Positions 6,809 through 43,527 of a stretch of 64,000 nucleotides of DNA are shown piece after piece. This DNA is from Candidatus Desulfofervidaceae bacterium (lineage in GTDB: Bacteria > Desulfobacterota > Desulfofervidia > Desulfofervidales > Desulfofervidaceae). How positions within the stretch are numbered: the stretch's first letter is position 1; each line of letters starts with the position of its first letter. Below the pieces are notes generated by a model that was not told the origin of the DNA, did no database searches, and saw nothing but the letters and a program-made list of their open reading frames with translations. The position numbers were made by a program, and so were the translations under genes. The stretch spans positions 186,001 through 250,000 of the forward strand of contig JALWFG010000011.1 in assembly GCA_027038965.1 (NCBI GenBank). The letters run 5' to 3'.

Positions 6809-6834
6809 ATCAAAATTTATTGATAAATTTTGAT
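6809..6834 (+). promoter_or_regulatory. perfect 11-bp inverted repeat (operator or attenuator)
   Basis: ATCAAAATTTA at 6809-6819 and its exact complement TAAATTTTGAT at 6824-6834 flank a 4-base loop and run into a T tract. It lies between the promoter and the first ORF of the operon, so it could be a repressor site downstream of the start point or an AT-only hairpin in the leader. The lack of G/C makes an efficient terminator unlikely. Confidence 0.45.
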
Positions 6835-6850: not shown

Positions 6851-8329
6851 ATGAATGTTTTTTCTGCCCTGAAACAGGCAAAAAATAGGTGGGATAAAGG
6901 GCTTGCCTTGTGGTCCTCAAAGGCAAAATTTGACTTTGAAGGTCTATTTGAGGCGGTGCTTAACTTTGCGGCTCAGTTGCAAAAGGCTGGTTTTGAAAAA
7001 GGAGATAAGTTTTTTGTTTGGTCATTCAATCATCCCGCCGCAGCGGTAGGCATTCTTGCCGCTTGGGTGCTTGAGGGGATTGTTGTCCCCCTTGATGCCA
7101 GTACCAAACCAGAAGATGTAGTTGGGTTGATTAACCACGCTCAGGGGAGATTTTTACTTACCGCTCCTAGACAAAAGGAGTTTTTGAACAGAATTTTAGA
7201 AGCTTCTTCGTTGAAAAGGGTATTTATATTGGAAGATGTTTTTAAGTCCCCTACATCCGGTGCAGTTTCCTTACCTGGGCATGAAGAGCTTGCTCCTGCC
7301 TTGATTCTTTACACCTCTGGCAGCACGGGCACTCCAAAGGGGGTAGTTTTGACTTATCGCCATCTGGATTCGCCTATGCTCACCTTGGAGCATTTCCAAT
7401 ATCTTCAACCAGGTGATCGTCTTTTGGGATTAGCCCCCTTTTCACATTTGGGTGGCGTCGTTGGGCTTTTAATCCCTGTTTGGTTTGGGGTGCCTGTGTT
7501 TTTGATGGAAAGATTTATTCCCAAGCTCTTTTTGAGATATTTAGGGCAGCATCAAATTACCTTTTTTTTTGTGCCTCCAACGGTGCTTCAAAGCCTTTTG
7601 CTTCAGCCTGATTTAGACCCCAAATTATTCAAATCCGTCAGGCTTATTGCCTCATTCGGGGCTCCATGTCCCCCAACGATATTCAAGGCCTTTTCAGAAC
7701 GGTTGCCATGGATCAATGTGGTTACAGGATATGGCTTGAGTGAATCGGCTGCCCCTAATGTGCTTATCCCCAAAGACACCCCCTTGGAAAAGAAATTAGA
7801 ACCAGGTATTGTGGGTAAACCAGTCCCTTGGGTAGAGATAAAGATTGTTAATGATGAAGGGAAAGGGCTTACTCAAGGAGAAATTGGCGAGGTGTTGCTT
7901 AAAGGCTGGTGTGTAATGCAAGGCTATTACAATGCCCCGGAGTTGACCAGAGAGGCTATCAAAGACGGCTGGCTTTATACTGGAGATTTAGGATTTTTGG
8001 ACAAAGAGGGCTTTTTACACCTTACGGGTCGTAAGAAGGAGGTTATTATTGTAGGGGGTCTTAATGTCTATGCCAATGAGGTAGAATTTGTAATTGCCCG
8101 CCATCCCAAGGTGGCTGAAGTAGCCGTAGTAGGGGTGCCTGATGGTTTGAGAGGTGAGGTAGTCAAGGCAGTAATTGTTCCCAAACCAGGCGTATCTTTG
8201 GACTCTCAAGAAATTTTGAACTTCTGCCGCACATATCTGGCCAGTTACAAATTGCCAAGGATTATTGAATTGCGGCCATTTCTTCCCAAAACCGCTTCAG
8301 GAAAGATTGCTAAGGCACAACTGAAATGA
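6851..8329 (+). CDS. acyl-CoA synthetase / AMP-dependent ligase
   Basis: ANL-superfamily adenylate-forming enzyme: P-loop-like LYTSGSTGTPKGVVLTYRHL (~155-175), A5 block TGYGLSESAAPN, A7 GWLYTGDLGFLDKEG, hinge region LTGRKKEVIIVGGLNVYANEVE and the catalytic-lysine block PKTASGKIAKAQLK at the very C-terminus. About 492 residues from ATG 6851; an in-frame TTG at 6830 would lie inside the inverted repeat. It most resembles fatty or aromatic acyl-CoA ligases but the acid is not predictable. It overlaps the MMPL exporter by ATGA and opens the operon, so it probably supplies or recycles an acyl group for the lipid handled downstream. Confidence 0.85.
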   Translation: MNVFSALKQAKNRWDKGLALWSSKAKFDFEGLFEAVLNFAAQLQKAGFEKGDKFFVWSFNHPAAAVGILAAWVLEGIVVPLDASTKPEDVVGLINHAQGRFLLTAPRQKEFLNRILEASSLKRVFILEDVFKSPTSGAVSLPGHEELAPALILYTSGSTGTPKGVVLTYRHLDSPMLTLEHFQYLQPGDRLLGLAPFSHLGGVVGLLIPVWFGVPVFLMERFIPKLFLRYLGQHQITFFFVPPTVLQSLLLQPDLDPKLFKSVRLIASFGAPCPPTIFKAFSERLPWINVVTGYGLSESAAPNVLIPKDTPLEKKLEPGIVGKPVPWVEIKIVNDEGKGLTQGEIGEVLLKGWCVMQGYYNAPELTREAIKDGWLYTGDLGFLDKEGFLHLTGRKKEVIIVGGLNVYANEVEFVIARHPKVAEVAVVGVPDGLRGEVVKAVIVPKPGVSLDSQEILNFCRTYLASYKLPRIIELRPFLPKTASGKIAKAQLK

Positions 8330-10629
8330 AGGATAAGTCGCTAGCGTATTGGATTATCAAATTTCGCTATCTGGGAATTCTTTTGCCATTGTCTTTGTGT
8401 ATATCTTCTTTGTTTTTTATACGGCACATAAAGGTGGCCACCCAACATCAAGACTTTATTCCTATCAAGCATCCATTTATAGAGGTTCAACGAAGGCTAA
8501 ATCGTTACTTTGGAGGTTTAAATAGGGTCAATATTGCCATTGTTGTTAAAAAAGGCAGTATTTTAAAGCCAGAGGTGCTCAGAGCAGTGAGGGGCATGGC
8601 GGAAGATATTCAGCTTTTGGATGAAGTCAACCCCCGAAGGGTCTATTCCATCTTTGCCCATCAGGTTAAATATATAAAAATCCATAAAGATGGCTTTTCG
8701 GTCCAGCGACTCATTGACAAAATTCCTGCTACCCCTCAAGAGATATCGTCCTTAAAGCAGAAAATCATTCACAATCCATTGGTTTATGGCCCTCTTATTT
8801 CAAAGGATTTTAAGGCCACCTTGATTCAGGCCGATTTTTATGAAAATATTTCTTCTCCCAAAATTTACAAAGAGATTAAGGGGATTGTAAAGAGATACAA
8901 AACCTCTGATTTCAATGTTTATCTTAACGGCGAGCCCATTTTAGAAGGCTACATTGATGGGCAATTGTCCTTTATTCTTTATGTATTTGCAGCCGCTTTG
9001 TTGGTCATTTTATCTTTGCTCTTTATGGCATTTAAAAAAAAACGGGCCTTTCTGCTTCCTTTACTTGCTGGAGGCATTTCTGTAATGCTCAGCCTGGCTG
9101 GGGTGGAACTCTTCCATTACACCTTAAATCCCTTTACGGTGCTTATTCCCTTTTTGATTTTTATCCTGGCAGTTAGCCATAGCATTCAATTTGTAGAACG
9201 TTACTTTGAAGAGGCTCAGATGCAGACCGACAAAACCCAGGTGGCCTTAAATACTCTCACCTCGCTTTTAAGCCCTATTAGGGCCTCTCTTTTTACCGAC
9301 TTTTTGGGTTTTGCCTCCTTGATCTTAATTCCTATTCCAGCCATCCACAGTATTGCCGTGTTGGGAAGCATTGGGGTATTGAGCATTTGGGCCAGTGTGG
9401 TTATATTTTTACCGTCTGTTTTTGCTATCATTCCTTTACCAGTTCTTTCCAAAAATAATTCTGGGTTTAACTTACCTTTTAAAGTGCTTGGCTTCTTTTC
9501 ATACCTTTGGCAGAGCCCTAAACGAATTTATTTTGTGCTTACGGTATTTGTCTCGCTTTTTATCATTGCCATTTATGGCATGCTTCACATTACCGTAGGA
9601 GAAATTGAACCAGGGACTTCGGTGCTTTATCACGATGCCCCCTACAATGTAGCGGCCCGGAAAATAAACAATTATTTTAGTGGAAGTAATCCCTATTATG
9701 TGTTAGTGAGCACAGACCATCCAGAAGGCCTGGTCAATGCTAAGGTTATGACCGAAATGGATGCCCTTGAGAAATACCTATGCCACCATCTCAAAGAGGC
9801 CGGCTATAGCCTTTCCATTGCCGATTATATAAAGCTTATGAACCTGGCGGTGCAACACAGGTTTATGATTCCCCAAAACGACAGAACGATTGGAGAATAT
9901 CTTTTTCTTTATGAAAGCAATGCCTTCCCTGGAGAATTAAATGGACTGATGACCCCTGATCATCGCTATGCCAATATCAGAGTGGATTTAAAGGACTGCC
10001 GCAGCAGCACGATTAAAAGGGCTATTTATTTTACTAAAGAATGGTTGAAGAAGTTTCACCATTTCAAAGGCCTAAAATTTGCCTATGCTGGTGGCCCTAT
10101 CGGCATCCTTGGTGCCACCAATGATATTATCAAAAGCGGGCTTTTTTCCAATATGATGGTTTTATGTGTCCTTATCTTCATCCGTATTTGTTTGGCCCTA
10201 AAGTCTCTTAGCGGTGGTGCCTTTTTGTTTATCCCGCTGGCCTTTAGCATTGCCTTAACCTTTGGCAGCTTTGGCATTTTTAATGTGCCCTTTACTATTG
10301 CCACCCTGCCAGTGGCAGCCATGGGGACAGGGCTTGGGATTGATTATTCTATTTACCTGGCCTCACGAATTAAAGAAGAGCGAGAAAAGGGGATAGGGCT
10401 ATTTGAGGCCGTGAATAAGGCCGTATTTACCTGTGGGAAGGCCGTGCTTTTTACTGGAAGCATCCTTACTATTGGGGTCTGGTCGTGGATGTTTTCTAAC
10501 CTCAAACTTCAGGCCAAGCTGGGAGGCACTTTGGGTGGACTTCTTTTATTTAACATGCTGGCGGCCTTGATTGTGTTGCCCATTTTTATCTTGCTCCTTA
10601 ATCCCAAATTTTTAAGGGAAAGGGTATGA
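8326..10629 (+). CDS. MMPL/RND-superfamily exporter (HpnN-like)
   Basis: 767-residue RND permease of the MMPL type. TM1 is at ~13-32, followed by a large periplasmic loop, a block of five to six TM segments (~215-370) including a sterol-sensing-like bundle, a second TM and periplasmic loop (~400-600), and a final TM block (~610-760) containing GTGLGIDYSIYLASRIKEER, the conserved segment between TM helices. The family includes hopanoid and mycolipid exporters. Its immediate partners (LolA-like protein and outer-membrane barrel downstream) match the common MMPL-LolA-barrel gene set, so envelope lipid export is likely. Substrate unknown. Confidence 0.82.
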   Translation: MKDKSLAYWIIKFRYLGILLPLSLCISSLFFIRHIKVATQHQDFIPIKHPFIEVQRRLNRYFGGLNRVNIAIVVKKGSILKPEVLRAVRGMAEDIQLLDEVNPRRVYSIFAHQVKYIKIHKDGFSVQRLIDKIPATPQEISSLKQKIIHNPLVYGPLISKDFKATLIQADFYENISSPKIYKEIKGIVKRYKTSDFNVYLNGEPILEGYIDGQLSFILYVFAAALLVILSLLFMAFKKKRAFLLPLLAGGISVMLSLAGVELFHYTLNPFTVLIPFLIFILAVSHSIQFVERYFEEAQMQTDKTQVALNTLTSLLSPIRASLFTDFLGFASLILIPIPAIHSIAVLGSIGVLSIWASVVIFLPSVFAIIPLPVLSKNNSGFNLPFKVLGFFSYLWQSPKRIYFVLTVFVSLFIIAIYGMLHITVGEIEPGTSVLYHDAPYNVAARKINNYFSGSNPYYVLVSTDHPEGLVNAKVMTEMDALEKYLCHHLKEAGYSLSIADYIKLMNLAVQHRFMIPQNDRTIGEYLFLYESNAFPGELNGLMTPDHRYANIRVDLKDCRSSTIKRAIYFTKEWLKKFHHFKGLKFAYAGGPIGILGATNDIIKSGLFSNMMVLCVLIFIRICLALKSLSGGAFLFIPLAFSIALTFGSFGIFNVPFTIATLPVAAMGTGLGIDYSIYLASRIKEEREKGIGLFEAVNKAVFTCGKAVLFTGSILTIGVWSWMFSNLKLQAKLGGTLGGLLLFNMLAALIVLPIFILLLNPKFLRERV

Positions 10630-11528
10630 AGACTCCGTTGGCCTATCCAGTACGTTATAGAAATGGTGTCATTAGGGTTCTGGATGAAACAAGGCTTCCT
10701 TTTGAAGAGACATATATTGAGGTGCGTACCCTTAAAGAGGCCCTCGTTGTCTTGAAGGAAATGAAAACTCGGGCCTTTGGCCAGGTATTGCTTTACTTTT
10801 ATACCTGTTTGCTTATGGAGAATATAGAACACACAGCCAGGGCCTTTAAGCAAGTTCGGCCTACCTTTGATTTCTATGGCTTGGCAGAGATGCTTAAGGA
10901 TGCATTTGAAAAAACCGGCCAATTGAAAGCGGCCATAGAGGGTATTGTCAATCGCTTTGAAAAGATGCGAAGACAAAGGGCAAAGAGGGTGGCTGAGGCC
11001 TTGCCCCCAGATGCCCATGTGCTGACCATCTGTCATGTGAGCGGGGAGTTGGTGTACGTTGGAGAGGCCGTGCAAACCTTGGGCAAATCGGTTTGCTTTT
11101 ATGCCTCAGAAACCCGTCCTTACCTTCAAGGGACCCGGCTCACCTTTTGGGAATTGCAGCGTGCAGGAATCCCTGTCAAGCTCTTGTGTGATAACCAGGC
11201 CGCTTGGCTGATGGAGAACGGGGTTGTTAATGCCGTTATTACTGGCTCTGACCGCTCCAATATCAAAGGGGATATCATTAATAAAATTGGCACCTATGCC
11301 TTGGCCCTTTTGGCCCATCACCATGGTATTCCTGTATATGCCCTAGTGCAGCGGCCCAAAGAGGTTGAGCTAACACAGGTAAAAATAGAAAGACGGCCTG
11401 AACAAGAGGTCTTTATGTGGCTGAAAAAGAGAGGTTATTTACCACCGGCCCTTTATCCGGCCTTTGACCTTACGCCAGCCCGTTTGATTACCAAACACTT
11501 TGATTTTGAGGAAGGCAATGAAGCTTGA
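10626..11528 (+). CDS. MtnA/eIF2B-alpha-like sugar-1-phosphate isomerase
   Basis: Related to 5-methylthioribose-1-phosphate isomerase (aldose-1-P to ketose-1-P). The C-terminal half has the family run HVLTICHVSGELVYVGEAV (the Cys matches the catalytic Cys of the THCN motif), ASETRPYLQGTRLTFWELQ and VITGSDRSNIKGDIINKIGTY (the Asp of GSDR matches the catalytic Asp of GADR). The N-terminal ~120 residues are helical and divergent, and at 300 residues it is shorter than MtnA (~350). ATGA overlap with the exporter. With the phosphorylase and aldolase downstream it would catalyse the middle step of a DHAP-shunt-like pathway; natural substrate unproven. Confidence 0.7.
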   Translation: MKTPLAYPVRYRNGVIRVLDETRLPFEETYIEVRTLKEALVVLKEMKTRAFGQVLLYFYTCLLMENIEHTARAFKQVRPTFDFYGLAEMLKDAFEKTGQLKAAIEGIVNRFEKMRRQRAKRVAEALPPDAHVLTICHVSGELVYVGEAVQTLGKSVCFYASETRPYLQGTRLTFWELQRAGIPVKLLCDNQAAWLMENGVVNAVITGSDRSNIKGDIINKIGTYALALLAHHHGIPVYALVQRPKEVELTQVKIERRPEQEVFMWLKKRGYLPPALYPAFDLTPARLITKHFDFEEGNEA

Positions 11529-11958
11529 TGAGGTTTTTGATTTGACACTTGTCTGGGGACTTCCTCAGAAATTTGAGGACTTGCAAGGGGATTTCCTTCT
11601 TATTCCTGAAATGCGCCCTTATCTTTTGGGACTTTCTTTATGTGAGCGTCTCAAAGAATTGAATTATCCCCATGTTTATGTTACCGATAATATGCTTGGT
11701 TATCTGTTTTTCAAAGGGAAGATAAAAAAAACCCTTTTATTCTATCTGAAGAAAGACAAAGAAGGTTTTGAATGCCTGAATGGCAGTTTGTATGTGGTGC
11801 GTTTAAGCAGACTCCATAAAGTGCCGGTGGTGTTCCTGCCAGGCAAGGGCATTCCCAAAGGATTGGAAAATAGAGACGCAGGTGGCATTGATGAGACTAT
11901 CTTTGTGAAGGATAGACATGCCATTATTAAGCCGAAAATAGAGAGAATAAATGGGTAA
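11518..11958 (+). CDS. degenerate half-MtnA/eIF2B-like protein
   Basis: 146-residue protein starting at ATG 11518 (GAGGAAGG just upstream), overlapping the previous gene by 11 bp. The stretch EMRPYLLGLSLCERLKELNY followed by VYVTDNMLGYLFFKGKIK aligns with the ETRPYLQGTRL...CDNQAAWLMENGVV block of the gene before it, and ...HKVPVVFLPG with ...HGIPVYALVQ. It lacks the N-terminal half, the catalytic Cys region and the GADR Asp motif, so it should be catalytically dead. It may form a heteromer with the full-length isomerase, as eIF2B-type subunits do. Similarity is by eye; no annotated family is recognised. Confidence 0.5.
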   Translation: MKLDEVFDLTLVWGLPQKFEDLQGDFLLIPEMRPYLLGLSLCERLKELNYPHVYVTDNMLGYLFFKGKIKKTLLFYLKKDKEGFECLNGSLYVVRLSRLHKVPVVFLPGKGIPKGLENRDAGGIDETIFVKDRHAIIKPKIERING

Positions 11959-12001
11959 ATTAGAAATGATTGCCCATACTAAAGATGGAGGAGGATTGAC
12001 T

Positions 12002-13468
12002 ATGCGCGTGCTTTTTTTACAACCCCCACTTGGCTGGTGGGCGGCTTGGAAGAAACACATTGCCAACAATGTGGCCCATGCCCAACTGGCCGCTAACATT
12101 AGAGAATGGTATCCTGAGATTGAAATTAAGGTGCTTGATACCAGGGCTTTGGGTATGGACGAAAAACAGATGGTGGACGCCATAACCGAGCTCAACCCCA
12201 ACCTGATTTACATGGGAGATGCCCTCCAAACTACAGGCGTGGCGGCTATTCATCCCCGTTATCAACAAGCGGCCAAGGTAATCAAGCAGGTTTTGCCTGA
12301 TGTCAAAATATGCGTGGGGGGCTTCTTCTATGGTGCCAATGCCCCAGCCATGCTTGAAAAGACCCCTGAATTTGATTTTGTGGTGGCTGGGGAAACCGAA
12401 AGGACGGTGCCTGAGTTGGCCAAGGAATTGAGCAAGTCGGATCCCGATATCCCTTCGGTTCGTGGATTGGCCTATCGGGATGAAAACGGCGAGGTGAAAC
12501 TGACCGAATATCGTCCTTTGATTGAGAATCTGGACGACCTGCCGCTTCCTGCCTACGACCTTTTTCCCATGGACAAATATGTGGGTTTTAATTATATCAG
12601 ACACTATGTAGAGACCTACATGACGCGGGGTTGTCCCAATGGATGCCGTTTCTGTGTAGGCTGGACCAACTACGACCCCAGAGGCAATCACGATTGGACC
12701 CATTACCGTCCCAGAAGCCCCAAACTTATGGCCGATGAAATGGAGCTTCTGGTCAAGAGATTTGGCGCCAAGTTTATTTGCATGATGGACGAAGACTTAA
12801 ACGTCTATCGGGAACGTATGGAAGGACTGATAGAAGAGCTCAAAAGGCGTAATTTAAAAGTGCCCTTTTTCTTCATGGGCCGGGCGCCTTATCATTTAAG
12901 GGATAGGGATTTGCTTAAGCCTTTAAGAGAAGTCGGTTTCGTCTGTGGGCTTTTCGGCATGGAGGCCGTAGATAAAGAGACCCTTGAGGCCATAAAAAAA
13001 GGCACCACGGTGGATGAAGTGGCTGAGCTGGTTGGGCTTTTTAGGGAAAACAATATTATGTCTGTGGTTACCTGGATGGTGGGCTTTCCTGAAGACGATG
13101 AACAACGAATCAAGGACCGGGTAGAAAGGCTTGATTTAATGGATCCTGATATGGCCGCCTTACAGATTTTAACCCCTCTGCCGGGTATTCCCCTGTACAA
13201 ACAGCTTGAGCCCTATACCGAGGAGTGGAACCTGCTCAAATGGGACTTTCAACACGCCGTTTTAAGAACCAAGCACCTTTCCAGGCAAGATTTAGGAAGG
13301 CTGGCCGCCTGGGCCAACCGGGAATTTTACAGCAAACCTGGGCGGGTGCAACGCATTCTCTATGACAAACGCTATCATCCCTTCTGTCGCTTGATTGCCA
13401 GGGTTTATGTGGAAACGGCCGGCAAAGAGCATGCCCAGGCAGCGGTAGAAGACAAAATATTTGTTTAG
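12002..13468 (+). CDS. B12-binding-type radical SAM enzyme
   Basis: ATG 12002 is chosen because GGAGGAGG lies at 11987-11994; an in-frame ATG at 11951 lacks such a site. Residues ~1-140 form a cobalamin-binding-like Rossmann domain (FLQPPLGWW at the start; CVGGFFYGAN and FVVAGETERTVPEL near its end). The radical SAM cluster motif is TRGCPNGCRFC (C211, C215, C218), followed by a SAM barrel with GLFGMEAVDKETLEAIKKGT and MVGFPEDD. Overall similar to B12-radical SAM proteins of lipid and hopanoid clusters (HpnJ-like) and methyltransferases. It overlaps no gene but follows closely inside the operon. Such enzymes either produce 5'-deoxyadenosine or transfer the adenosyl group, which links it to the phosphorylase downstream. 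Confidence 0.78.
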   Translation: MRVLFLQPPLGWWAAWKKHIANNVAHAQLAANIREWYPEIEIKVLDTRALGMDEKQMVDAITELNPNLIYMGDALQTTGVAAIHPRYQQAAKVIKQVLPDVKICVGGFFYGANAPAMLEKTPEFDFVVAGETERTVPELAKELSKSDPDIPSVRGLAYRDENGEVKLTEYRPLIENLDDLPLPAYDLFPMDKYVGFNYIRHYVETYMTRGCPNGCRFCVGWTNYDPRGNHDWTHYRPRSPKLMADEMELLVKRFGAKFICMMDEDLNVYRERMEGLIEELKRRNLKVPFFFMGRAPYHLRDRDLLKPLREVGFVCGLFGMEAVDKETLEAIKKGTTVDEVAELVGLFRENNIMSVVTWMVGFPEDDEQRIKDRVERLDLMDPDMAALQILTPLPGIPLYKQLEPYTEEWNLLKWDFQHAVLRTKHLSRQDLGRLAAWANREFYSKPGRVQRILYDKRYHPFCRLIARVYVETAGKEHAQAAVEDKIFV

Positions 13469-13480
13469 GAGAAGGACCCT

Positions 13481-14209
13481 ATGATGAATCGCGATATTCA
13501 CCTTACCGCCCAAGACCTCCTGCGGGCGATGCAATTTAAGCCCGGAGATTTTGGAGAGATTGCCATTGTAAGCGGTCAACCTCAGAGGGTGCAGATGGCC
13601 CTAGAAAAGTTAAAAAATCCCCTGCGCAACTTTAGCGCCATGGGCTACACATTGTGGACAGGAGAATACAAAGGCAAACGGGTTACCGTTGGGCACGGTG
13701 GTATGTATGCCCCGGATGCTGCCTTGATAACCGAGCTTTTGTGCGCCGGCGGCGTGGAATGCCTGATTAGGCTTGGCAGTTGTGGGGCCATGAAGAAAGA
13801 TATAGAGATTGGCGATTATGTTATTGCTGAAGGGGCTATAAGGGGAGATGGAGTGACCAGATATTATGTCAAAGATGGCTTTCAACCTAAGGCCGACCCT
13901 GAACTTACTCAAAAACTTTTTTCTCTCTGTAAGAAACATGCTCATAAAGGTCTTGTTTGGACAACAGACGCCTTGCTTCGGGAAACAAAGGATTTTGTTA
14001 ATGGAGCCATTGCTCAAGGGGCCATTGCCGTGGACATGGTTACCAGCCCCTTTTTTACCATTGCCCAGCTTTATAACAAACGGGCCTGTGCGGTGTTGGT
14101 AGTAAGTGACAACCTTATTACTGGAGAAATTGGGTTTGCCGATATCAGGGTATTTGATGCCGAAAGGAGGCTCATAGAAAGGGGTTTTGACTTGGTGAGG
14201 GAGGTATGA
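13481..14209 (+). CDS. nucleoside phosphorylase (PNP/UDP family)
   Basis: 242-residue enzyme of the PNP_UDP_1 fold that would cleave a (deoxy)nucleoside with phosphate to base and sugar-1-phosphate. Family features: YAPDAALITELLCAGGVECLIRLGSCGAM in the middle, IGDYVIAEGAIRGDG, and VDMVTSPFFTIAQL, where the usual Glu-Met-Glu ribose-binding motif reads VDMVTS, then VVSDN with the base-contacting Asp. The altered ribose-binding motif suggests a modified 5'-position or sugar. GGAGAAGG at 13470-13477 supports the start. Role in operon: release of adenine from 5'-deoxyadenosine or an adenosylated lipid, before the isomerase and aldolase. Confidence 0.78.
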   Translation: MMNRDIHLTAQDLLRAMQFKPGDFGEIAIVSGQPQRVQMALEKLKNPLRNFSAMGYTLWTGEYKGKRVTVGHGGMYAPDAALITELLCAGGVECLIRLGSCGAMKKDIEIGDYVIAEGAIRGDGVTRYYVKDGFQPKADPELTQKLFSLCKKHAHKGLVWTTDALLRETKDFVNGAIAQGAIAVDMVTSPFFTIAQLYNKRACAVLVVSDNLITGEIGFADIRVFDAERRLIERGFDLVREV

Positions 14210-15153
14210 AATCTTTCAAACAAAAACTCATTTTCTGGGGTAATTTGCTTTACAAGCGGGGGCTTTTGTGCGGTAGCTCTGGCAATGTTTCTGTAAGGGA
14301 TGGAGACCGGATTTGGGTGACAAGTCACGGAAGCTTCTTGGGATTTTTGGACAAAGAGGATATTGTTGTCCTTGACTTGGAAGGTCATGTTGTTGAGGGT
14401 AGGGCTGCACCTACTTCAGAGACCCCACTTCATTTGGGGATCTATAGGCGATTTCCTGAAGTGAAAGTGGTGCTTCATGCCCATTCCCCTTTTAGTGTGG
14501 CCTATTTTGAGCGCCATGATACCTTTTGCCCTACTACCTTTGAGGAGAGGTTGTATTTAGGCATTGTGCCTGTGGTGCCTCAATTTACGCCCATCGTTAC
14601 CCAAATAGAGCCTGTCCTTAGTGCCCTTGATCGGAACGATATTGTAGTGCTTAAAAGGCACGGAGTGGTGGCCATAGGGCAAGACTTTAAACATACCTTT
14701 TCCTTAATTGAGCTTTTGGAAACCGCTACCAAAACGGCGCTTTTGACAGGTCAATCACCCAGAACTGTCAAAAGGATTAAGGCCGCCTTCAACCTTTTTT
14801 CTTTAGACCATATTGGGGCCTTGATAGAAACGGTTAACAAAGACGATTTGATAAAACAATTTGGTAAAGACACCACATTTAGCTTCAGTATTTCTGATGG
14901 TGAGCATCAAATTGGTTTCCAATTCTCCTCTGGCAGACTGAGCCAGATAGATACTAAGAATGTGGATTGTCTGTTTGAAGCCCCTCAAAGGATGTGGCAA
15001 TTTGTGTTTAATGGAGAGATGGATATCTTTGCAGCTTGTTTTCAGAAAAGGATTAAGTTTAAAGGTGATTTCAAACACCTTATTTCTCTCTTTCCAATAT
15101 TTGAACGGCTGTTTGAGCTTTGGCAAGAAATAGGTGTTGTTAAGGAGGGATGA
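14206..15153 (+). CDS. class II aldolase fused to SCP2 lipid-binding domain
   Basis: Residues ~1-200 are a zinc class II aldolase of the fuculose-1-phosphate type: GSSGNVSVRDGDRIWVTSHG, TSETPLHLGIYRR with the catalytic Glu, VVLHAHSPFSVAYF with the metal HxH, and VLKRHGVVAIG with the third His. Residues ~215-315 are not part of that family (usually ~200-220 aa); they match the SCP2 sterol-carrier fold: FSFSISDGEHQIGFQFSSG, then a WQFVFNGEMDIFAACFQ helix and RIKFKGDFKHLISLFPIF. Inferred reaction: ketose-1-phosphate to DHAP plus an aldehyde, with the SCP2 part holding a lipid substrate or product. Overlaps the phosphorylase by ATGA. Confidence 0.75.
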   Translation: MKSFKQKLIFWGNLLYKRGLLCGSSGNVSVRDGDRIWVTSHGSFLGFLDKEDIVVLDLEGHVVEGRAAPTSETPLHLGIYRRFPEVKVVLHAHSPFSVAYFERHDTFCPTTFEERLYLGIVPVVPQFTPIVTQIEPVLSALDRNDIVVLKRHGVVAIGQDFKHTFSLIELLETATKTALLTGQSPRTVKRIKAAFNLFSLDHIGALIETVNKDDLIKQFGKDTTFSFSISDGEHQIGFQFSSGRLSQIDTKNVDCLFEAPQRMWQFVFNGEMDIFAACFQKRIKFKGDFKHLISLFPIFERLFELWQEIGVVKEG

Positions 15154-15155
15154 AA

Positions 15156-16034
15156 ATGAGAAAAGTGGAACTGGCCGTAGTGGTTTGGATACTTTTAGGG
15201 TGCTTTGTAACAAGTGCCTTTGCGGCCGGGAAATGTCGTCCAGACCCTTTGCCCCCCAATCCTACGGTAGGGCAAATTATGAAACACTGGTATGAAATCA
15301 AGTTTACCCGGTTTGCTGATGATGTCAGTTACGATATTTGTAAGGTTATTATGGTAGATAAATCGGGATTCAAGCGAGAGAAGATTTCCATTAGAAAGCG
15401 CATCATTTTGCATGGGAAACACGGATTTGACTATAAAGACTTGGTGATGATTACCTATCCTGAATACACTAAGGGGTTGGCTATCCTCACTTGGGCCTAC
15501 ACCGATATCAATAAACAAAACGACCTTTGGCTTTGGCTACCCTCTATGAAAAAGGTAAGAAAGATGTCTCAAGCCGATGAAGACGACTCCTTTCTGGGCA
15601 CAGAGTTTACCGTTGAGGATGTCAGCACCAGAAGATACGGCTATGAATCTTATCAACTATTGGGAGAGGCTGAATTCCCCGGCTACACCTGCCGTTATGA
15701 CAAGAAGCTCTATTTTAAAGGCGAGCCCTGCTGGAAGATAAGGGCCGTTCCCAAAAGAAAAAATTGGTACTATGCCTATCGCATTCTCTGGGTGGATAAG
15801 AAGACGGGGGTGGAAATTTTTGCCGAGTATTACAATAAACTGGGTAAAAAGTTTAAAGAAGTCTTTCATTATCTAGACACCCCTCAAAATGGCTGTTGGT
15901 CTACTCGCATTTGGGAGGTCTACAATTACCGTACTGGACATCGGGACACCATTGTAATCAGCCCGGCCCGATACAATACAGGACTTAGGGAAAGGGACTT
16001 TAGCCCTAGGGTGCTTGAAAGAATGGAATGGTAA
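15156..16034 (+). CDS. LolA-like outer-membrane lipoprotein-sorting protein
   Basis: Start ATG 15156 is favoured: AAGGAGGG at 15142-15149 gives a 6-base spacing, whereas ATG 15150 would have none. A signal peptide is clear (VELAVVVWILLGCFVTSAFA then AAGK). The mature part belongs to the periplasmic 'outer membrane lipoprotein-sorting' family (COG2834-like), with WLWLPSMKKVRKMSQADEDDSF as the typical block and a half-barrel of beta strands. These proteins accompany MMPL exporters and are thought to ferry lipids across the periplasm. Cotranscribed with the aldolase upstream and the barrel downstream. Confidence 0.75.
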   Translation: MRKVELAVVVWILLGCFVTSAFAAGKCRPDPLPPNPTVGQIMKHWYEIKFTRFADDVSYDICKVIMVDKSGFKREKISIRKRIILHGKHGFDYKDLVMITYPEYTKGLAILTWAYTDINKQNDLWLWLPSMKKVRKMSQADEDDSFLGTEFTVEDVSTRRYGYESYQLLGEAEFPGYTCRYDKKLYFKGEPCWKIRAVPKRKNWYYAYRILWVDKKTGVEIFAEYYNKLGKKFKEVFHYLDTPQNGCWSTRIWEVYNYRTGHRDTIVISPARYNTGLRERDFSPRVLERMEW

Positions 16035-16049
16035 AAAAAGGAGAGGGCG

Positions 16050-17465
16050 ATGAAAAGGATATGCATCATAATTTTGGCTCTACTTGAATGGGTGAGTCTG
16101 GCTCAGGCCAGCATTTACCGAGGACATAGTTTAACCCTTGAGGGGTCTTTAAAGAATGAGACTGGCGTTTATTTGGACAATGTCGGCAAATATACCAAAA
16201 TTATGGACATCATTGACCTAAAAGGCCAGTATCGGCCGGTAGATGAGCTTTCCTTCTTTATGCACATCCGCAAGTTCTGGGATCATGCCTACAATGTAGA
16301 AAGCGATTATCAATCTGCCCGTTATCTTATGTACACCAATAGAAAGACCTGGACAGGGATCAGTTGGGTAAGAGAGTGCTATTTAGACTATTTTTCTGTC
16401 TATCTGGACATGAGGCTTGGTAAACAGATTGTTACCTGGGGCACAGCCGACGGCATCAGGGTGCTAGACCAGGTAAATCCGCTTGATTATCGCGAGTTTA
16501 CCCTTAGGGACTGGAATGAAATCAAAATCCCCTTGTGGATGGTCAAATTAGAAGCCGCTCCCACAGTAAATGGCAGTCTGCAATTCCTTTTTATCCCCGA
16601 CTTTGAACCCAACTTTTTGCCCCCGGCAGGTGCCCCCTACGCCTTTAAAACGGCAGAAACAGCCGCCCAAAGCTATGCTAGGCTAGAAAGGTTAGGTTAC
16701 CGGGTGGTGACTAGAGAACAGCGTCCGGCCGAAAAGGTAGGTAATGCCAAGTTTGGTATCAGATGGCGGGATATTATTGGCAGTTTTGAGTACAGTCTTA
16801 ACTATCTCTATGGCTGGAACATGAATCCTGAGACCTATGCTAGCGTGGATACAAGCACCATGACAGGGCCGCCACCATTAACGGGTTATCCTCCTGCTGG
16901 TTCTACTTACATTTTTACAAGAAAATACAGCCGCATCAATCTGTGGGGCGGTAGCTTTTCCAAAAGCTTTGTAGAAGGGTTCTTAAAAGGCCTTACAATT
17001 AGGGGCGAGTTTGCCTACTTAAGGGATGTGCCGGTGTCTTATTACAACGATCGTGGCCAGCTAAGCTACACCAAAACTGACCAATACAAGTATGTTATTG
17101 GGCTTGATAAATACTTGATTACCAACTGGTTTTTTAGTTTTCAGTTAATCCAGCTTATTAATAGCCAAAAGGACTATCAAGGACACAGGTTCCTTTTGCC
17201 TTCTGGCGGTCCTATGGACAAGGTATCTACTTATCTAACCTTAAAAATCAGCACTGACTTTTTCCATGAAAGGCTTAAGCCAGAGATACTTTTTATTTAC
17301 GGAGACGACAATGAGTGGCGCATTAGCCCTAAGATGTATTATGAGTTTAACGACCATTTGACCGCCATTACAGGTATGCACATTTTTGTGGGCAAAGAAA
17401 GTGAGCTTTATGGTGAGTTTAACGATGTTAATGAATTATATCTGGAGTTAAGATACAGTTTTTGA
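16050..17465 (+). CDS. outer-membrane beta-barrel protein (DUF1302-like)
   Basis: 471 residues with a signal peptide (KRICIIILALLEWVSLAQA) and a C-terminal YLELRYSF ending in Phe, the outer-membrane insertion signal. The body alternates aromatic beta strands (for example SYTKTDQYKYVIGLDKYLIT). Early features RLGKQIVTWGTADGIRVLDQVNPLDY match the DUF1302-type barrels that accompany MMPL and LolA-like genes. SD GGAGAGG lies 10 bp after the previous stop. It is the last gene of the operon and the likely outer-membrane exit or partner of the exported molecule. Confidence 0.68.
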   Translation: MKRICIIILALLEWVSLAQASIYRGHSLTLEGSLKNETGVYLDNVGKYTKIMDIIDLKGQYRPVDELSFFMHIRKFWDHAYNVESDYQSARYLMYTNRKTWTGISWVRECYLDYFSVYLDMRLGKQIVTWGTADGIRVLDQVNPLDYREFTLRDWNEIKIPLWMVKLEAAPTVNGSLQFLFIPDFEPNFLPPAGAPYAFKTAETAAQSYARLERLGYRVVTREQRPAEKVGNAKFGIRWRDIIGSFEYSLNYLYGWNMNPETYASVDTSTMTGPPPLTGYPPAGSTYIFTRKYSRINLWGGSFSKSFVEGFLKGLTIRGEFAYLRDVPVSYYNDRGQLSYTKTDQYKYVIGLDKYLITNWFFSFQLIQLINSQKDYQGHRFLLPSGGPMDKVSTYLTLKISTDFFHERLKPEILFIYGDDNEWRISPKMYYEFNDHLTAITGMHIFVGKESELYGEFNDVNELYLELRYSF

Positions 17466-36540: not shown

Positions 36541-37887
36541 TTAGCTAAATACAATTTCAAAGGCCTTTTCTACACTGTTTACCCCAAAGGCTTGTAAATA
36601 GCTCTTTTTTAAGCGCTTCAGATTTGTTTGAGGTAAAAGGCACCGTTTAAATCCCAATTTTTCTGCCTCTATAAGCCTCTGCTCAATTTGCATCACGGCC
36701 CTAACTTCTCCAGTAAGTCCTACTTCCCCCAAAAATATCCACTCTCCAGGAACCACTTTGTTAAAAAAAGAGGATGCAATGCTTACCACAATGCCTAAAT
36801 CTGCTGCTGGCTCATCAATTTTGATTCCTCCAGCCACGTTGAGAAAGATGTCTTGCCCGCCAAGATTGAGTCCCAATCTCTTTTCTAAAATGGCTACTAA
36901 AAGGTTGAGTCGATAAGGGTCTATTCCCAGGCAAGTCCGTCTTGGCATGGCTAGAAAACTGGGGCTTACCAAGGCCTGAAGTTCTACCAAAAGGGGGCGC
37001 GTGCCTTCAAGGACAGGCACTACCACCGAACCCGGTACATTCTGGGGACGTTCAGACAAAAATATTTCAGACGGATTTTTAATGGCAACTAGTCCCCTTT
37101 CTTGCATTTCAAATATACCCACTTCATTGGTGGAACCAAACCGGTTTTTTACCGCCCTTAAAATGCGAAAAGGGTGTCCTTTTTCTCCTTCAAAATAGAG
37201 CACAGTGTCTACCATATGTTCCAGCATCCGAGGTCCGGCAATGGCCCCTTCTTTGGTGACATGGCCAATTATAAAAAGGGCAATTTCCCCTTTTTTAGCC
37301 AATCTGACCAAGAGATTAGTTACCTCTCTTACTTGGGAAACGCTCCCTGGTGCGGAGCTTAACCCCTCAGTAAACATGGTTTGAATAGAATCAATTACCG
37401 CAGCCCTTACATTTGAGGAGATGATGGTATTAATGATGCCCTCTATCTCGTTTGCTGTGAGGACAAGGAGATTCGCATTTTCTATACCAAGCCTTTTGGC
37501 CCGCATTTTTATTTGGGAACTTGATTCTTCCCCTGAGACGTAAATTACTCTTATGTCCTGTTTGGCCAATTGGTGTAAGGTTTGCAAGGCCAAGGTGGAC
37601 TTTCCAATTCCTGGCGGTCCCCCAATTAAAATGACACTTCCAGGGACGATTCCTCCTCCTAATACCCTATCCAATTCTGCCATGTCTGTCTTCAAACGAG
37701 AAAACTCAAAACTGGCGATTTCGGTAATAGGAGAGGGTATTAGTCTTTCAGAATCCCTTTGCCTTTGAGAATTTCCTTGCTTTGTTTCCTCAACAAAGGT
37801 GTTCCATCCCCCGCAATCAGGGCATCTCCCTAACCATTTAGGAGATTTATACCCACATTGCTGACAAACAAAAACTGTCTTTTTCAT
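36541..37887 (-). CDS. radA: DNA repair protein RadA
   Basis: RecA-like ATPase that stabilises and migrates recombination intermediates. N-terminal zinc finger CQQCGYKSPKWLGRCPDCGG, Walker A GGPPGIGKST, the RadA-specific KNRFGSTNEVGIFEM (KNRFG) motif and a C-terminal Lon-protease-like domain; 448 residues is typical. It is the last gene of the chemosensory operon, sharing one base with the cheR gene (ends at 37887). Confidence 0.96.
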   Translation of the reverse strand: MKKTVFVCQQCGYKSPKWLGRCPDCGGWNTFVEETKQGNSQRQRDSERLIPSPITEIASFEFSRLKTDMAELDRVLGGGIVPGSVILIGGPPGIGKSTLALQTLHQLAKQDIRVIYVSGEESSSQIKMRAKRLGIENANLLVLTANEIEGIINTIISSNVRAAVIDSIQTMFTEGLSSAPGSVSQVREVTNLLVRLAKKGEIALFIIGHVTKEGAIAGPRMLEHMVDTVLYFEGEKGHPFRILRAVKNRFGSTNEVGIFEMQERGLVAIKNPSEIFLSERPQNVPGSVVVPVLEGTRPLLVELQALVSPSFLAMPRRTCLGIDPYRLNLLVAILEKRLGLNLGGQDIFLNVAGGIKIDEPAADLGIVVSIASSFFNKVVPGEWIFLGEVGLTGEVRAVMQIEQRLIEAEKLGFKRCLLPQTNLKRLKKSYLQAFGVNSVEKAFEIVFS

Positions 37888-39221
37888 TATGCCTTAATAT
37901 ATTCCTTGGCAATTTTTTCTAGCTCACCTGCTGAAATTACGTCCATTATTTCAGGTAGAATACCATAATGAGGCCCTTTAGACACCGCCTTTAGTACATT
38001 TTTATAGGACCTTAACGCCTTATTTACCTCTCCTAAATGCCAGTAAATGTTTCCTAGATAAAAATGAGCAAGGGCAAAATCGGGATTTAAATATATGGCC
38101 TTCTTAAAACTGGAAATGGCCTCTTCCACCTTACCAGTTTCATAGTAAACAATGCCCAAAAAGAGATGGGCCTCAGGAAGGGTGGGATAATTATCCAGAA
38201 GCTTATGACATATCTGGACTGTCTCTTGGTATGCTCCAATATCAGCAAATTGTTTTGCCATTTTAAGGAGCTCTTTTGGGCTTTTAGGACTGGACTTAGG
38301 GAGAGGCATTTTTTCAAGATGAGTGGGGGGTTTAATTATAGCTTTAGGCAGTATCGGTGATTCCTTTTTTCTCGCCGTTTCAAGTGATTGTTGGTAAAGG
38401 GTCTTTCGATATACAAAGGATTTACCAACCTTTTCGGTAGAAAAAAGCTGTTTATCTATGGTTAAGGCCTCTGTAGGAGCCAAAAATAAATATCCATTTT
38501 CTCTAAGGCATATATGGAAATTGCGCAGTATTCTTTTGATCGTTCGCTCCCGAAAATAGATAAATACATTACGACAAAATATGACATCTAAATCGTTGAA
38601 AAGATATAAAGGAAATGGTTCTTTAACCAAATTAATTCGCATAAATTTTATTATCTCTTTTATTTCTCTTTTTACAATGCACACATCGTCCTTAAAGGTA
38701 AAAAATCGTTGATATTTTTTGGGGAGCTTAGTTACTTCCCTTTGGGGATAGACGCCCTGCCTTGCTATTTTTAAGGCGTTTTCATTAATATCACTGGCAT
38801 ATATCTGGACTTTTAATCCTTGGAGTCTTTCTTTATTGGCGGTCAATATGAAGGCAAGGGAATATGGTTCTTCTCCTGTGGAACACCCTGCACTCCATAT
38901 CTTTATCTCTGGTTTCCCTTGTTTTTTTCTGTCCTTGATTATTTCAGGAAGGACACCTTCTTCAAAGGCCTCAAATTGTTCTTGATGTCGAAAAAAGCTT
39001 GTTTCTGGTATAGTAATAAACTTGCTTAATTCCAAGATTTCTTTTTGTTCAAATGAGGGACTGGTGAGAAGGGTATAATAATCCTCTTCATTATTTATCC
39101 CTAATGTTGCCATCCTTTTTTCAATAGCATCCTGTAAATACTTCTTTCTTGAGGGGTCAAAGAACAATCCTGTTTTCTCTTCAATTATTTCTACAAAGGA
39201 TTCTATCATCTTCATATACAC
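37887..39221 (-). CDS. CheR-type methyltransferase with C-terminal TPR repeats
   Basis: Glutamate methyltransferase for chemoreceptors: CheR_N (~5-70, helix FDPSRKKYLQDAIEKRM), catalytic KIWSAGCSTGEEPYSLAFIL SAM motif and FCRNVFIYFRERTIKRIL. After residue ~320 come TPR units (HLFLGIVYYETGKVEEAIS and HFYLGNIYWHLGEVNKALR). CheR with C-terminal TPR is the WspC arrangement. Possible starts are 39221, 39215 and 39209; it overlaps the GGDEF gene by ~30-41 bp. Confidence 0.88.
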   Translation of the reverse strand: MYMKMIESFVEIIEEKTGLFFDPSRKKYLQDAIEKRMATLGINNEEDYYTLLTSPSFEQKEILELSKFITIPETSFFRHQEQFEAFEEGVLPEIIKDRKKQGKPEIKIWSAGCSTGEEPYSLAFILTANKERLQGLKVQIYASDINENALKIARQGVYPQREVTKLPKKYQRFFTFKDDVCIVKREIKEIIKFMRINLVKEPFPLYLFNDLDVIFCRNVFIYFRERTIKRILRNFHICLRENGYLFLAPTEALTIDKQLFSTEKVGKSFVYRKTLYQQSLETARKKESPILPKAIIKPPTHLEKMPLPKSSPKSPKELLKMAKQFADIGAYQETVQICHKLLDNYPTLPEAHLFLGIVYYETGKVEEAISSFKKAIYLNPDFALAHFYLGNIYWHLGEVNKALRSYKNVLKAVSKGPHYGILPEIMDVISAGELEKIAKEYIKA

Positions 39222-40677
39222 AAACTTTGTTCCGGCCAGTTTCTTTGGCCTTGTATAAGGCCTCGTCGGTGCGTTTTATTACTTCATCAACCGTATAGGG
39301 CATATTCGTTCTATAATTGCTTACTCCTAGACTGATGGTGACTGTGATTTTTTCTCCTAAGGCCTCAAAGGGATAACTCTCTACTTCTTTTCTTAATCTT
39401 TGCGCAAAGCTTATTCCTCCCTTTAATGGCGTTTGGGGTAAAAGAATGATAAACTCCTCTCCTCCAAAGCGAGAGGGAATGTCTATGTTTCTAGCACTTT
39501 CTTTCATTATCTTAGCTAGCTGTCTTAAAACCATATCCCCTGCTACATGCCCATAGGTGTCGTTTATTCTCTTAAAATGGTCAATATCTAGCATTACCAC
39601 TGAAAACTCATTTTGAGGATAGCGTTTTGCCCTTTCATATTCTTGGTTTAAGCAAGAAAAGAAGTAACGGCGATTGTAAAGCCCTGTAAGTTCATCTGTA
39701 ACGGCCTTAAGTCTGATTTTCTCATAGAGATATGCGTTTTCAATAATGATAAATGCGTGTTCCAAAATTAACTCTAACATTGTCTCTTCCGATTCTGAAA
39801 GTTCTCTTATTCGCTCTCCATAAAAGATAAATCCTCCCCATACTTCACCTTTGCCTGCCTTAATGCCTGAGTAAAAAAAGAAAAAGTTATCTAAATCTTC
39901 AATAATCTTTTTCTCATCCACCTTTTCATCTTGGTTTAGCACAATCCATTTCACATGGTTAGGTGTCTCTAGATGATACTTTTCAATCTGATTTAACCAG
40001 TAGTCTTGCAAAATCATTAAATCCTTTTTATCGGGCGAATTATCTGATTTCACAAATAGGGTTCCTTCCTCTTTATCTACAATAAAAGTTACTGCTAGAC
40101 TGTAATCAATCAATTCTTTAAGCACACTCAAAACTTCATTGATTGTCTTTTTATAGGCATAAATATCTCTAGCAAGGGTGGTAATGCGATTAATGATTGT
40201 TACTTCATAAAGTTTTTTATCAAGTAAATCATTTGTTTTTAATAAAATATCAATAAGAGTAACAGGATGTTCTGGTTTATTAATATTGGCAAACCTTTTT
40301 TCTTCTGCCTTTTGAAGGGTTTTCTCAATGATATTTAAAAGATTTTCATAGGCAATATCCTTGGTCACATAGGCATCTGCTCCGATTTGCAATCCCCAAA
40401 ATTTCTCTACAGGTTTATCTTTGGTAGTAAACATAATAATGGGAATGTACTTTACCCGCTCATCATTTTTCAATAACCGACATACTTGATACCCATTCAT
40501 TTTGGGCATGGTAATGTCTAACAAAATTATATCTGGGGGGTTGGTGTAAACCTTTTCAATTGCCTCTAACCCATTTTGGGCTGTATCAACCTCATATCCA
40601 TTCTTCTTCAAAAAGGTGCTCAACATCTTCAAAATTAATAAACTATCATCTACTAATAATATTTTTTTGGGCCTCAT
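39181..40677 (-). CDS. response regulator diguanylate cyclase (REC-GAF-GGDEF)
   Basis: Receiver domain (1-120; phospho-Asp in DIILLDITMPKMNG), a GAF-like central region (~165-320) and a C-terminal GGDEF (~330-490) with active site RFGGEEF. An I-site RNID lies exactly five residues upstream of GGEEF, so product inhibition is expected. It makes c-di-GMP after phosphorylation by the neighbouring hybrid CheA, the WspR role, but with an extra GAF between. Overlaps cheB by 32 bp and cheR by ~40 bp. Confidence 0.9.
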   Translation of the reverse strand: MRPKKILLVDDSLLILKMLSTFLKKNGYEVDTAQNGLEAIEKVYTNPPDIILLDITMPKMNGYQVCRLLKNDERVKYIPIIMFTTKDKPVEKFWGLQIGADAYVTKDIAYENLLNIIEKTLQKAEEKRFANINKPEHPVTLIDILLKTNDLLDKKLYEVTIINRITTLARDIYAYKKTINEVLSVLKELIDYSLAVTFIVDKEEGTLFVKSDNSPDKKDLMILQDYWLNQIEKYHLETPNHVKWIVLNQDEKVDEKKIIEDLDNFFFFYSGIKAGKGEVWGGFIFYGERIRELSESEETMLELILEHAFIIIENAYLYEKIRLKAVTDELTGLYNRRYFFSCLNQEYERAKRYPQNEFSVVMLDIDHFKRINDTYGHVAGDMVLRQLAKIMKESARNIDIPSRFGGEEFIILLPQTPLKGGISFAQRLRKEVESYPFEALGEKITVTISLGVSNYRTNMPYTVDEVIKRTDEALYKAKETGRNKVCVYEDDRILCRNN

Positions 40678-41722
40678 TTTTTACTCCAGTGAGATTAATC
40701 AACTCTTCCCCTATTTCACGGGGAGATAACATCTTGATATGGGCATTTATTTCAATGGCTGCTTTGGGCATTCCGAAAACGGCACAGCTTTTTTCATCCT
40801 GAACGATCGTATATCCTCCTTTTTGCTTGATTTGCTTAAGCCCTAAGGCCCCATCCTCTCCCATTCCTGTTAGCAAAATACCTATGCTGTGGTTAGCATA
40901 AACTTCGGCCACTGATTTAAAAAGGACATCTACTGCAGGCCGATGTCCATTAACTGGTTTGGAACTTGAATCCAGAACCATTCTCTTTCTTCTGTTTACC
41001 TTAAGGTGTTTCCCAGAAGGGGCTATATAAACTACGCTAGGAGTTACAGGTTCTCCATCCTCAGCCAATTTTACAGGCAGTTTAACTTCAGTCCTTAACC
41101 ACTCCACCATAGATTCTATAAATCCAGCCGTCATGTGTTGTACAATTAAAATGGGTAATGAGAAAGTAGAAGGCAGGAGAGCCAAAATTTCTTTGATAAC
41201 GCCGGGGCCTCCGGTAGAAGCCCCCATAGCCACCACTTCAAAATGGTTCCCAAACTTTACAATATCCTTATAGGGCGCATGATACAAATCCTGATACGAA
41301 AAAGGTTTCCTTAAAGTCGTTCTCTTTATTTCTGAAAACAATTTTATCTTTCCCACAAGGATTTTGGAGAATCTTTGCCATTCGGTCTTGGAATTTGGCT
41401 TTAGCATTATATCCAACGCCCCTGCTGCCAAGGCATTAAACGAGCTATACATTTGGTTTTTATTCAAGACCGAGCTAATTATTATGATAGGAATGGAATA
41501 AGAGGAGATAATTTTTTCTGTAGCTTCTAAACCGTTCATAACTGGCATTTGGATGTCCATTAATATGACATCTGGCTTTAAATTAAATGCTTTTTCCACC
41601 GCCTCTTTGCCATTCCTAGCCTCTCCTATAACTTCAATTTGAGGGTCCTTTTCCAATGTTTCCCGTAATATCTTTCGGGTTGTCAATGAATCATCTACAA
41701 TCAGAACCTTTTTCTTTTCCAT
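40646..41722 (-). CDS. cheB: CheB protein-glutamate methylesterase
   Basis: REC domain (phospho-Asp in DVILMDIQMPVMNG) plus methylesterase domain with active-site GASTGGPG (Ser), LIVQHMTAG (His) and TGMGEDG (Asp). ATG 41722 is chosen because AGGAGA is directly upstream on the minus strand; an upstream in-frame start at 41740 would lengthen it by six residues. Adapts the receptor encoded just upstream. Confidence 0.95.
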   Translation of the reverse strand: MEKKKVLIVDDSLTTRKILRETLEKDPQIEVIGEARNGKEAVEKAFNLKPDVILMDIQMPVMNGLEATEKIISSYSIPIIIISSVLNKNQMYSSFNALAAGALDIMLKPNSKTEWQRFSKILVGKIKLFSEIKRTTLRKPFSYQDLYHAPYKDIVKFGNHFEVVAMGASTGGPGVIKEILALLPSTFSLPILIVQHMTAGFIESMVEWLRTEVKLPVKLAEDGEPVTPSVVYIAPSGKHLKVNRRKRMVLDSSSKPVNGHRPAVDVLFKSVAEVYANHSIGILLTGMGEDGALGLKQIKQKGGYTIVQDEKSCAVFGMPKAAIEINAHIKMLSPREIGEELINLTGVKNEAQKNIISR

Positions 41723-41729
41723 TTCTCTC

Positions 41730-43208: not shown

Positions 43209-43527
43209 TTCTATTCTCCTCCAGAAGTTTTTTTAAACAAATCACAGGGAAAAGCCTTTTTTGAGATTCTATTATCCCCCAAATTGCCTTATGCCATGGG
43301 GAAGAAGAAATATAGACAAAGAAGCTTCTTAACACCTTTGGTAAAGGATAAAGCCTCTCTAACGGAACAAAAGAGAAGTCTAGAATTTTATCCACAGGTA
43401 TTTCTTCTGTGCTCCCTTTTACTTTCAAATACACTTCTTCTTTTTGCCCAATTTCTGCAATTTCATCAGCCAAAACGGCCAAGAGATATTTTTCCTTTTC
43501 AAAAAAAATAATCGGAAGCTCTTTCAT
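43195..43527 (-). CDS. small protein between cheA and mcp, possibly degenerate CheW-like
   Basis: 110 residues: MKELPIIFFEKEKYLLAVLADEIAEI, then KVKGSTEEIPVDKILDF and KAIWGIIESQKRLFPVICLKKLLEE. The order of short beta strands around an 'EI' turn and the final hydrophobic strand recall CheW-type SH3-like folds, but the sequence is too divergent to assign. It overlaps mcp by 14 bp and directly follows cheA by 1 bp, so it is part of the signalling complex in all likelihood. It might replace the second CheW (WspD) of Wsp systems. Confidence 0.45.
   Translation of the reverse strand: MKELPIIFFEKEKYLLAVLADEIAEIGQKEEVYLKVKGSTEEIPVDKILDFSFVPLERLYPLPKVLRSFFVYISSSPWHKAIWGIIESQKRLFPVICLKKLLEENRNETL

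Follow-up and report, generated by a model that had tools for sequence, protein, structure and literature searches.

Related pathways and the operon under study

In a 64-kb stretch of the genome of a Candidatus Desulfofervidaceae bacterium (hereafter the window), nine genes at positions 6851-17465 form an operon that resembles several described systems. Three of its products belong to the enzyme classes that carry out ordinary disposal of 5'-deoxyadenosine (PMC8102628, PMC10986504). As in the dihydroxyacetone phosphate (DHAP) shunt (MtnN/K or MtnP, MtnA and Ald2/DrdA), whose pentose substrates are soluble 5-deoxy or 5-methylthio compounds, a phosphorylase, an MtnA-type isomerase and a class II aldolase would yield adenine, DHAP and an aldehyde. 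The fluoroacetate (fl/nob) pathway of Streptomyces cattleya and Nocardia brasiliensis takes 5'-fluoro-5'-deoxyadenosine through a phosphorylase, an isomerase, an aldolase and an aldehyde dehydrogenase (PMC3999930), and is likewise a route from a 5'-substituted adenosine to a substituted acetate. In the making of the bacteriohopanepolyol side chain by HpnH and HpnG, a 5'-deoxyadenosyl radical is added to a lipid and adenine is then removed by a phosphorylase (PMC12583986). AmeABCD combines an HAE3 pump with a LolA/DUF1329 protein and a DUF1302 protein, handles apolar monoterpenes and serves monoterpene tolerance (PMC6394551), and a cluster containing DUF1329 and MMPL genes is highly expressed in an anaerobic benzene degrader (PMC13101534).

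Unlike the DHAP shunt, the operon pairs a divergent isomerase with a half-length MtnA, carries an SCP2 domain on the aldolase and includes a radical SAM (S-adenosylmethionine) enzyme, a ligase and a transporter, joined in relatives by a dehydrogenase; a canonical MtnA is encoded apart from the operon in the window genome. In the fluoroacetate pathway a fluorinase sets fluorine on C5', whereas here we propose a radical SAM enzyme for that step and an apolar substituent R. In contrast to HpnH and HpnG, the radical SAM enzyme of the operon is of the B12/BchE type and the sugar would be cleaved further. The operon shares with AmeABCD an HAE3 inner-membrane pump, a LolA/DUF1329 periplasmic protein and a DUF1302 outer-membrane protein, but no AmeC-like gene was seen in it. 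The benzene ('Magic') cluster was considered as the same system and rejected; neither a radical SAM enzyme nor an aldolase nor a nucleoside phosphorylase is mentioned in the main text of PMC13101534. Our searches of open-access PMC full texts turned up no account of a gene set of this kind.

We propose that the operon encodes a lipid-adapted pathway of the DHAP-shunt type that would convert a 5'-C-adenosylated apolar compound to R-CH2-CHO or R-CH2-COOH plus DHAP, a reading that we judge about evenly balanced between right and wrong. Tentatively, and at somewhat under an even chance, we suggest that an unactivated apolar molecule is C-adenosylated by a B12-type radical SAM enzyme and that a dedicated SCP2-bearing DHAP shunt trims the adduct to a two-carbon unit. 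SAM would thereby act as CH2-CHO or CH2-COOH donor to a product associated with the membrane, and this product would be transported through the envelope. The nine genes all lie on the + strand, with overlaps of 4 to about 29 nucleotides and gaps of at most 16 nucleotides:

6851..8329, +, acyl-coenzyme A (CoA) ligase, AMP-forming, FadD-like (Pfam AMP-binding, 225 bits, plus C domain)
8326..10629, +, MMPL/RND transporter, HAE3 type (Pfam MMPL, 139 bits)
10626..11528, +, divergent MtnA-like sugar-1-phosphate isomerase (PF01008, IF-2B, 129 bits)
11518..11958, +, half-MtnA, the C-terminal half (hhalign match to MtnA; no Pfam match)
11951..13468, +, B12-type radical SAM enzyme, BchE/HpnJ-like superfamily (Radical_SAM, PF04055, 67.6 bits; weak B12-binding, 34.7 bits)
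13481..14209, +, PNP-family phosphorylase of the adenine-nucleoside type, nearest to methylthioadenosine (MTA) phosphorylase/DeoD (PF01048, PNP_UDP_1, 128 bits)
14206..15153, +, class II (Zn) aldolase fused to SCP2 (Aldolase_II, 132 bits; SCP2, 28.7 bits)
15150..16034, +, periplasmic LolA-like protein, DUF1329 relative (PF17131, 128 bits; DUF1329, 34.6 bits)
16050..17465, +, outer-membrane barrel, DUF1302 (PF06980, 74 bits)

Each family assignment was upheld at the superfamily level by Pfam and NCBIfam, in agreement with an earlier sequence-only reading of this DNA that had described one overlapping operon containing all of these genes. The ligase begins at the first ATG (6851; alternative TTG at 6830), and its top NCBIfam match is a long-chain acyl-CoA ligase, under the curated cut-off. 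Against the HAE3 model TIGR00921 the transporter scores 174 bits, also under the cut-off, and HpnN/BstA score lower. Promoter and terminator scans gave no signal above chance level.

The aldolase carries a lipid-carrier domain

C-terminal to the aldolase part of the protein (approximately residues 1-190), we found an SCP2 lipid-carrier domain (approximately residues 198-310) that had been overlooked in the first reading and that scores above the Pfam cut-off in the window protein. Carriers of sterols and lipids have this fold. Homologues were sampled within one phylum (395 genomes, of which G000 is the window genome), and all E-values and counts are raw, with shared ancestry not corrected for. 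Pfam found the SCP2 domain in 14 of the 14 aldolase relatives collected across the phylum, and the class II active site (Glu72, His91, His93 and His152, comprising the zinc ligands and the catalytic Glu) is invariant in the 14 sequences. Because a sequence-only search with the SCP2 part found no solved relative, we turned to a fold search. The AlphaFold model has a mean predicted local distance difference test score of 87.7 for the whole protein and 93.5 for the C-terminal domain alone. The best Foldseek matches of the whole protein were L-fuculose-1-phosphate aldolases and DrdA, the aldolase of 5'-deoxyadenosine salvage in Bacillus thuringiensis (6btg, 6btd), and the C-terminal domain model matched SCP2 proteins at the top of its list, including UbiJ-SCP2 of ubiquinone synthesis. 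When a single aldolase sequence was scanned against the genome contigs, ordinary class II aldolases were all that matched, and these only in part. The window genome encodes a second, short aldolase outside the operon.

SCP2-fused class II aldolases also occur in other families (L116, L117, L118, L119 and L114) without phosphorylase or MtnA-like neighbours. At L117, an acyl-CoA ligase gene directly follows the fused aldolase gene.

The phosphorylase and isomerase diverge from their canonical relatives

The best solved relative found with the phosphorylase profile is the MTA phosphorylase of S. solfataricus (Sulfolobus; 1jds). The phosphorylase falls under every NCBIfam equivalog cut-off, including that for HpnG (TIGR03468; 40.2 bits, cut-off 187.1). 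Its alignment retains Arg36, Arg97 and Ser100, which we take to bind phosphate, and Asp210, which presumably binds the purine. The other PNP-family genes of the window genome encode a futalosine hydrolase, an inosine/guanosine PNP and one further, unassigned member. At L140:1154-2958 the futalosine hydrolase gene is followed by a gene that appears MqnD-like by eye, and these two genes suggest the futalosine route, itself a radical SAM adenosylation pathway, as the probable origin of menaquinone in the window organism.

In the MtnA-like isomerase alignment, the catalytic Cys136 and Asp209 are invariant and much of the conserved core is retained, the 7-residue loop just after the Cys is deleted and the N-terminal domain is rewritten. 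The nearest solved structure is 1t9k. The isomerase scores 158.8 bits against the MtnA equivalog TIGR00512, under its cut-off of 279, and the canonical MtnA elsewhere in the window genome (G000:C7) scores 423.7 bits. The MtnA-like isomerases match the half-MtnA protein over their C-terminal half (hhalign probability 95.8%, E 7e-9), and the half-copy named in the sequence-only reading is thus a true MtnA relative by profile-profile comparison. In G197 (L115:9526-11052) the isomerase and half-MtnA are fused in a single open reading frame of 508 amino acids, which stands after the phosphorylase gene and before those for the SCP2-aldolase and the ligase. We infer a structural role for half-MtnA as partner of the isomerase.

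Half-MtnA scores above 100 bits in exactly 10 of the 395 genomes; weaker matches, near 50 bits, are open frames of a size fitting canonical MtnA. All 10 genomes fall among the 13 that have the radical SAM family (p = 1.3e-17 by genomes and 5e-7 by families, with finer phylogeny ignored).

The gene set is conserved with changes in order

Comparison of genome neighbourhoods bore out the expectation that the genes are conserved together. Orthologues cluster not only within the window genus but also, with changes in gene order, in its sister genera and in a second family of the order; the set is therefore conserved and not a chance assembly. In G002, from the window genus, the identical nine genes are found in identical order. 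In two sister genera (G001, G004) and another family of the order (G137), the set occurs in altered order with an aldehyde dehydrogenase gene directly after the aldolase gene; in G137 the genes from MMPL to LolA are visible and the contig ends there. An aldehyde dehydrogenase gene lies immediately 3' of the aldolase gene at loci L043 (which has up to three ligase copies), L044, L072, L077 and L078, and phosphorylase, isomerase, aldolase and aldehyde dehydrogenase genes are clustered in G001, G004, G137, G051 and G144. G051 and G144 belong to a different family and have radical SAM, amidohydrolase, phosphorylase, MtnA, half-MtnA, SCP2-aldolase and dehydrogenase genes; in G051, ketoacyl-synthase, cyclase and short-chain reductase genes precede the module, and in G144 the radical SAM gene is cut off by the end of the contig. 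In G003, the ligase, radical SAM, phosphorylase, MtnA and half-MtnA genes are on one contig and the SCP2-aldolase gene is on another. G005 has phosphorylase, MtnA, radical SAM, half-MtnA, ligase and lipid A-type acyltransferase genes (locus L075).

The radical SAM enzyme and the possible substrate

The radical SAM enzyme has a CxxxCxxC motif at residues 212-219 (numbered on the first alignment row) in which Cys212, Cys216 and Cys219 are invariant. Its scores reach no equivalog cut-off, those for BchE (214.7 bits, cut-off 481), HpnJ (126.6, cut-off 578) and HpnR (110, cut-off 650) included, and it belongs to the B12-type methylase/cyclase superfamily, nearest to BchE and HpnJ. On one short contig (L074), the radical SAM gene adjoins MMPL and a LolA-like open reading frame, without nucleoside genes.

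Close paralogues of the radical SAM gene adjoin glycyl radical enzyme genes at L073:293-5113 and L057:2-1926, and nucleoside-processing genes are absent from these short contigs. In L073 the glycyl radical neighbour is accompanied by an activase; in L057 it was identified by eye from the terminal part of the adjacent open reading frame.

We searched eight genomes, including that of the window, for squalene-hopene cyclase and found it in none of them; a hopanoid substrate is therefore unlikely, and we set it aside. In some relatives, the apolar substrate may be a product of a type II polyketide synthase (PKS). Paralogous radical SAM genes lie in or beside a ketosynthase cluster in G001, G004, G008 and G051. 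The cluster has a pair of ketosynthases, one with the active Cys and one without it (chain-length-factor-like; shown for G001), and varying sets of genes for SRPBCC, short-chain reductase, PF04199 cyclase, aldehyde ferredoxin oxidoreductase and ketopantoate reductase-like proteins. In G004 and G008 a glycyl radical enzyme and its activase also adjoin a further radical SAM copy. A close relative of the ketopantoate reductase-like marker was not found in G000, G002, G003 or G137, so the window organism probably does not obtain its substrate from the PKS-like cluster, which was set aside in that role.

Anaerobic type II PKS-like clusters were seen at L082:7171-19694, L079:9228-19901, L080:1-9152, L081:134-11529 and L077:1634-9167. 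Their gene sets vary between loci and are drawn from a ketosynthase/chain-length-factor-like pair, aldehyde ferredoxin oxidoreductase, SRPBCC, cyclase and BchE-like radical SAM genes, with a glycyl radical enzyme and activase in addition at L080.

A proposed pathway and the evidence for and against it

In the pathway that we propose, the radical SAM enzyme would link an apolar molecule R to SAM's 5'-deoxyadenosyl carbon. Going by family and retained residues, the phosphorylase would remove adenine to leave a 5-R-substituted ribose-1-phosphate, the MtnA-like isomerase with its half-MtnA partner would convert this to the ribulose-1-phosphate, and the SCP2-aldolase, its SCP2 domain gripping the greasy part, would cleave the sugar to DHAP and R-CH2-CHO. 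Gene order in relatives of the window genus, and only there, suggests that an aldehyde dehydrogenase would then form R-CH2-COOH. The ligase may activate the acid to a CoA ester or adenylate, and the MMPL, LolA-like and DUF1302 proteins may carry substrate or product across the envelope, in a direction that is likewise conjectural. The net effect would be to install a two-carbon CH2-CHO or CH2-COOH unit from the ribose of SAM on an apolar molecule.

The sequence-only reading had proposed a lipid-adenosyl DHAP shunt with its own exporter. Phosphorylase-isomerase-aldolase logic acting on a hydrophobic substrate gains support from the SCP2 domain, the aldehyde dehydrogenase in sister operons, the strict co-occurrence with the radical SAM family, the separate canonical MtnA and aldolase, and the AmeABCD-like transporter. 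The identity of the substrate, its adenosylation by the radical SAM enzyme, and export as opposed to import stay suppositions. The end point of the sequence-only reading, lipid-CH2-CHO, was incomplete, as several relatives' operons go on to the acid by way of aldehyde dehydrogenase and then, with the ligase, to a CoA ester.

Several observations weigh against the proposed pathway. The Glu of the VEME motif, which we take to bind ribose, is replaced by Val or Ile throughout the phosphorylase alignment; phosphorylases with the substitution may hold the sugar differently. No gene of the window genome was recognised as a textbook MTA phosphorylase, and ordinary salvage might thus be a further task of the operon's own phosphorylase. 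The G005 cluster is without an SCP2-aldolase, and the SCP2-aldolase stands alone in G161, G252 and G349. An aldehyde dehydrogenase orthologue is absent from the window genome (best match 27% identity), from the window genus and from G003; in the window organism the pathway may therefore stop at the aldehyde, or an enzyme unrelated to this dehydrogenase may oxidise it. Lastly, adenosylation of a substrate is not known to us for any B12-type radical SAM enzyme; the adenosylating enzymes HpnH and MqnE are of other kinds than the BchE-like B12 type.

Alternative explanations

The principal rival is salvage of 5'-deoxyadenosine or MTA, in which the radical SAM enzyme would make a lipid-like product and the phosphorylase, isomerase and aldolase would clear 5'-deoxyadenosine to adenine, DHAP and acetaldehyde, with the dehydrogenase (where present) and the ligase leading on to acetyl-CoA. 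We regard this as doubtful but a serious contender, in part because no textbook MTA phosphorylase was recognised. A radical SAM enzyme would yield 5'-deoxyadenosine, the enzyme classes are those of the DHAP shunt, and DrdA is among the Foldseek matches of the aldolase. However, an SCP2 domain has no evident use in acetaldehyde chemistry, the isomerase and phosphorylase pockets are altered, the ligase looks to be of the long-chain type, and the genome has a separate canonical MtnA and short aldolase.

Anaerobic hydrocarbon activation is improbable. Here the adenosyl radical would be added to an imported hydrocarbon to give R-CH2-CO-CoA for beta-oxidation, and MMPL, LolA and DUF1302 would serve uptake. 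The expression of MMPL and DUF1329 in the benzene-degrading anaerobe (PMC13101534), the role of HAE3, DUF1329 and DUF1302 in monoterpene tolerance (PMC6394551) and the multiple ligase copies at L043 would suit such a role, but one SAM would be spent per substrate molecule, which is costly for catabolism, and the operon has no beta-oxidation genes. Moreover, the module is tied in relatives to a type II PKS-like biosynthetic cluster and, in L075, to a lipid A-type acyltransferase.

There is only a slight chance that the nucleoside enzymes process another nucleoside-lipid made elsewhere while the radical SAM enzyme modifies the same product in an independent reaction, BchE-like or a methylation. 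The B12-type methylase/cyclase superfamily of this enzyme and the separation of the phosphorylase, isomerase, aldolase and ligase genes from radical SAM genes in L115 might suggest as much, but half-MtnA never occurs without the radical SAM family in 395 genomes, and several families have the radical SAM gene close beside that for the phosphorylase.

Other genes in the window

Elsewhere in the window, an open reading frame at 59775-61055 looks by eye like sulfate adenylyltransferase, which fits a sulfate reducer. A run on the - strand at 37887-45653 appears by eye to be chemosensory/two-component, with CheR-, CheB-, CheA- and receptor-like genes.

Implications

The proposed pathway offers a clean test between 5'-deoxyadenosine salvage and adenosyl-lipid processing. 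If it is correct, substrate adenosylation would, to our knowledge, be new to B12-type radical SAM enzymes, and an integral lipid carrier would be new to aldolases. SAM would then serve as a two-carbon donor to apolar molecules, nucleoside salvage chemistry would be tied to lipid or polyketide biosynthesis in anaerobes, and an unknown class of envelope compounds would be predicted.

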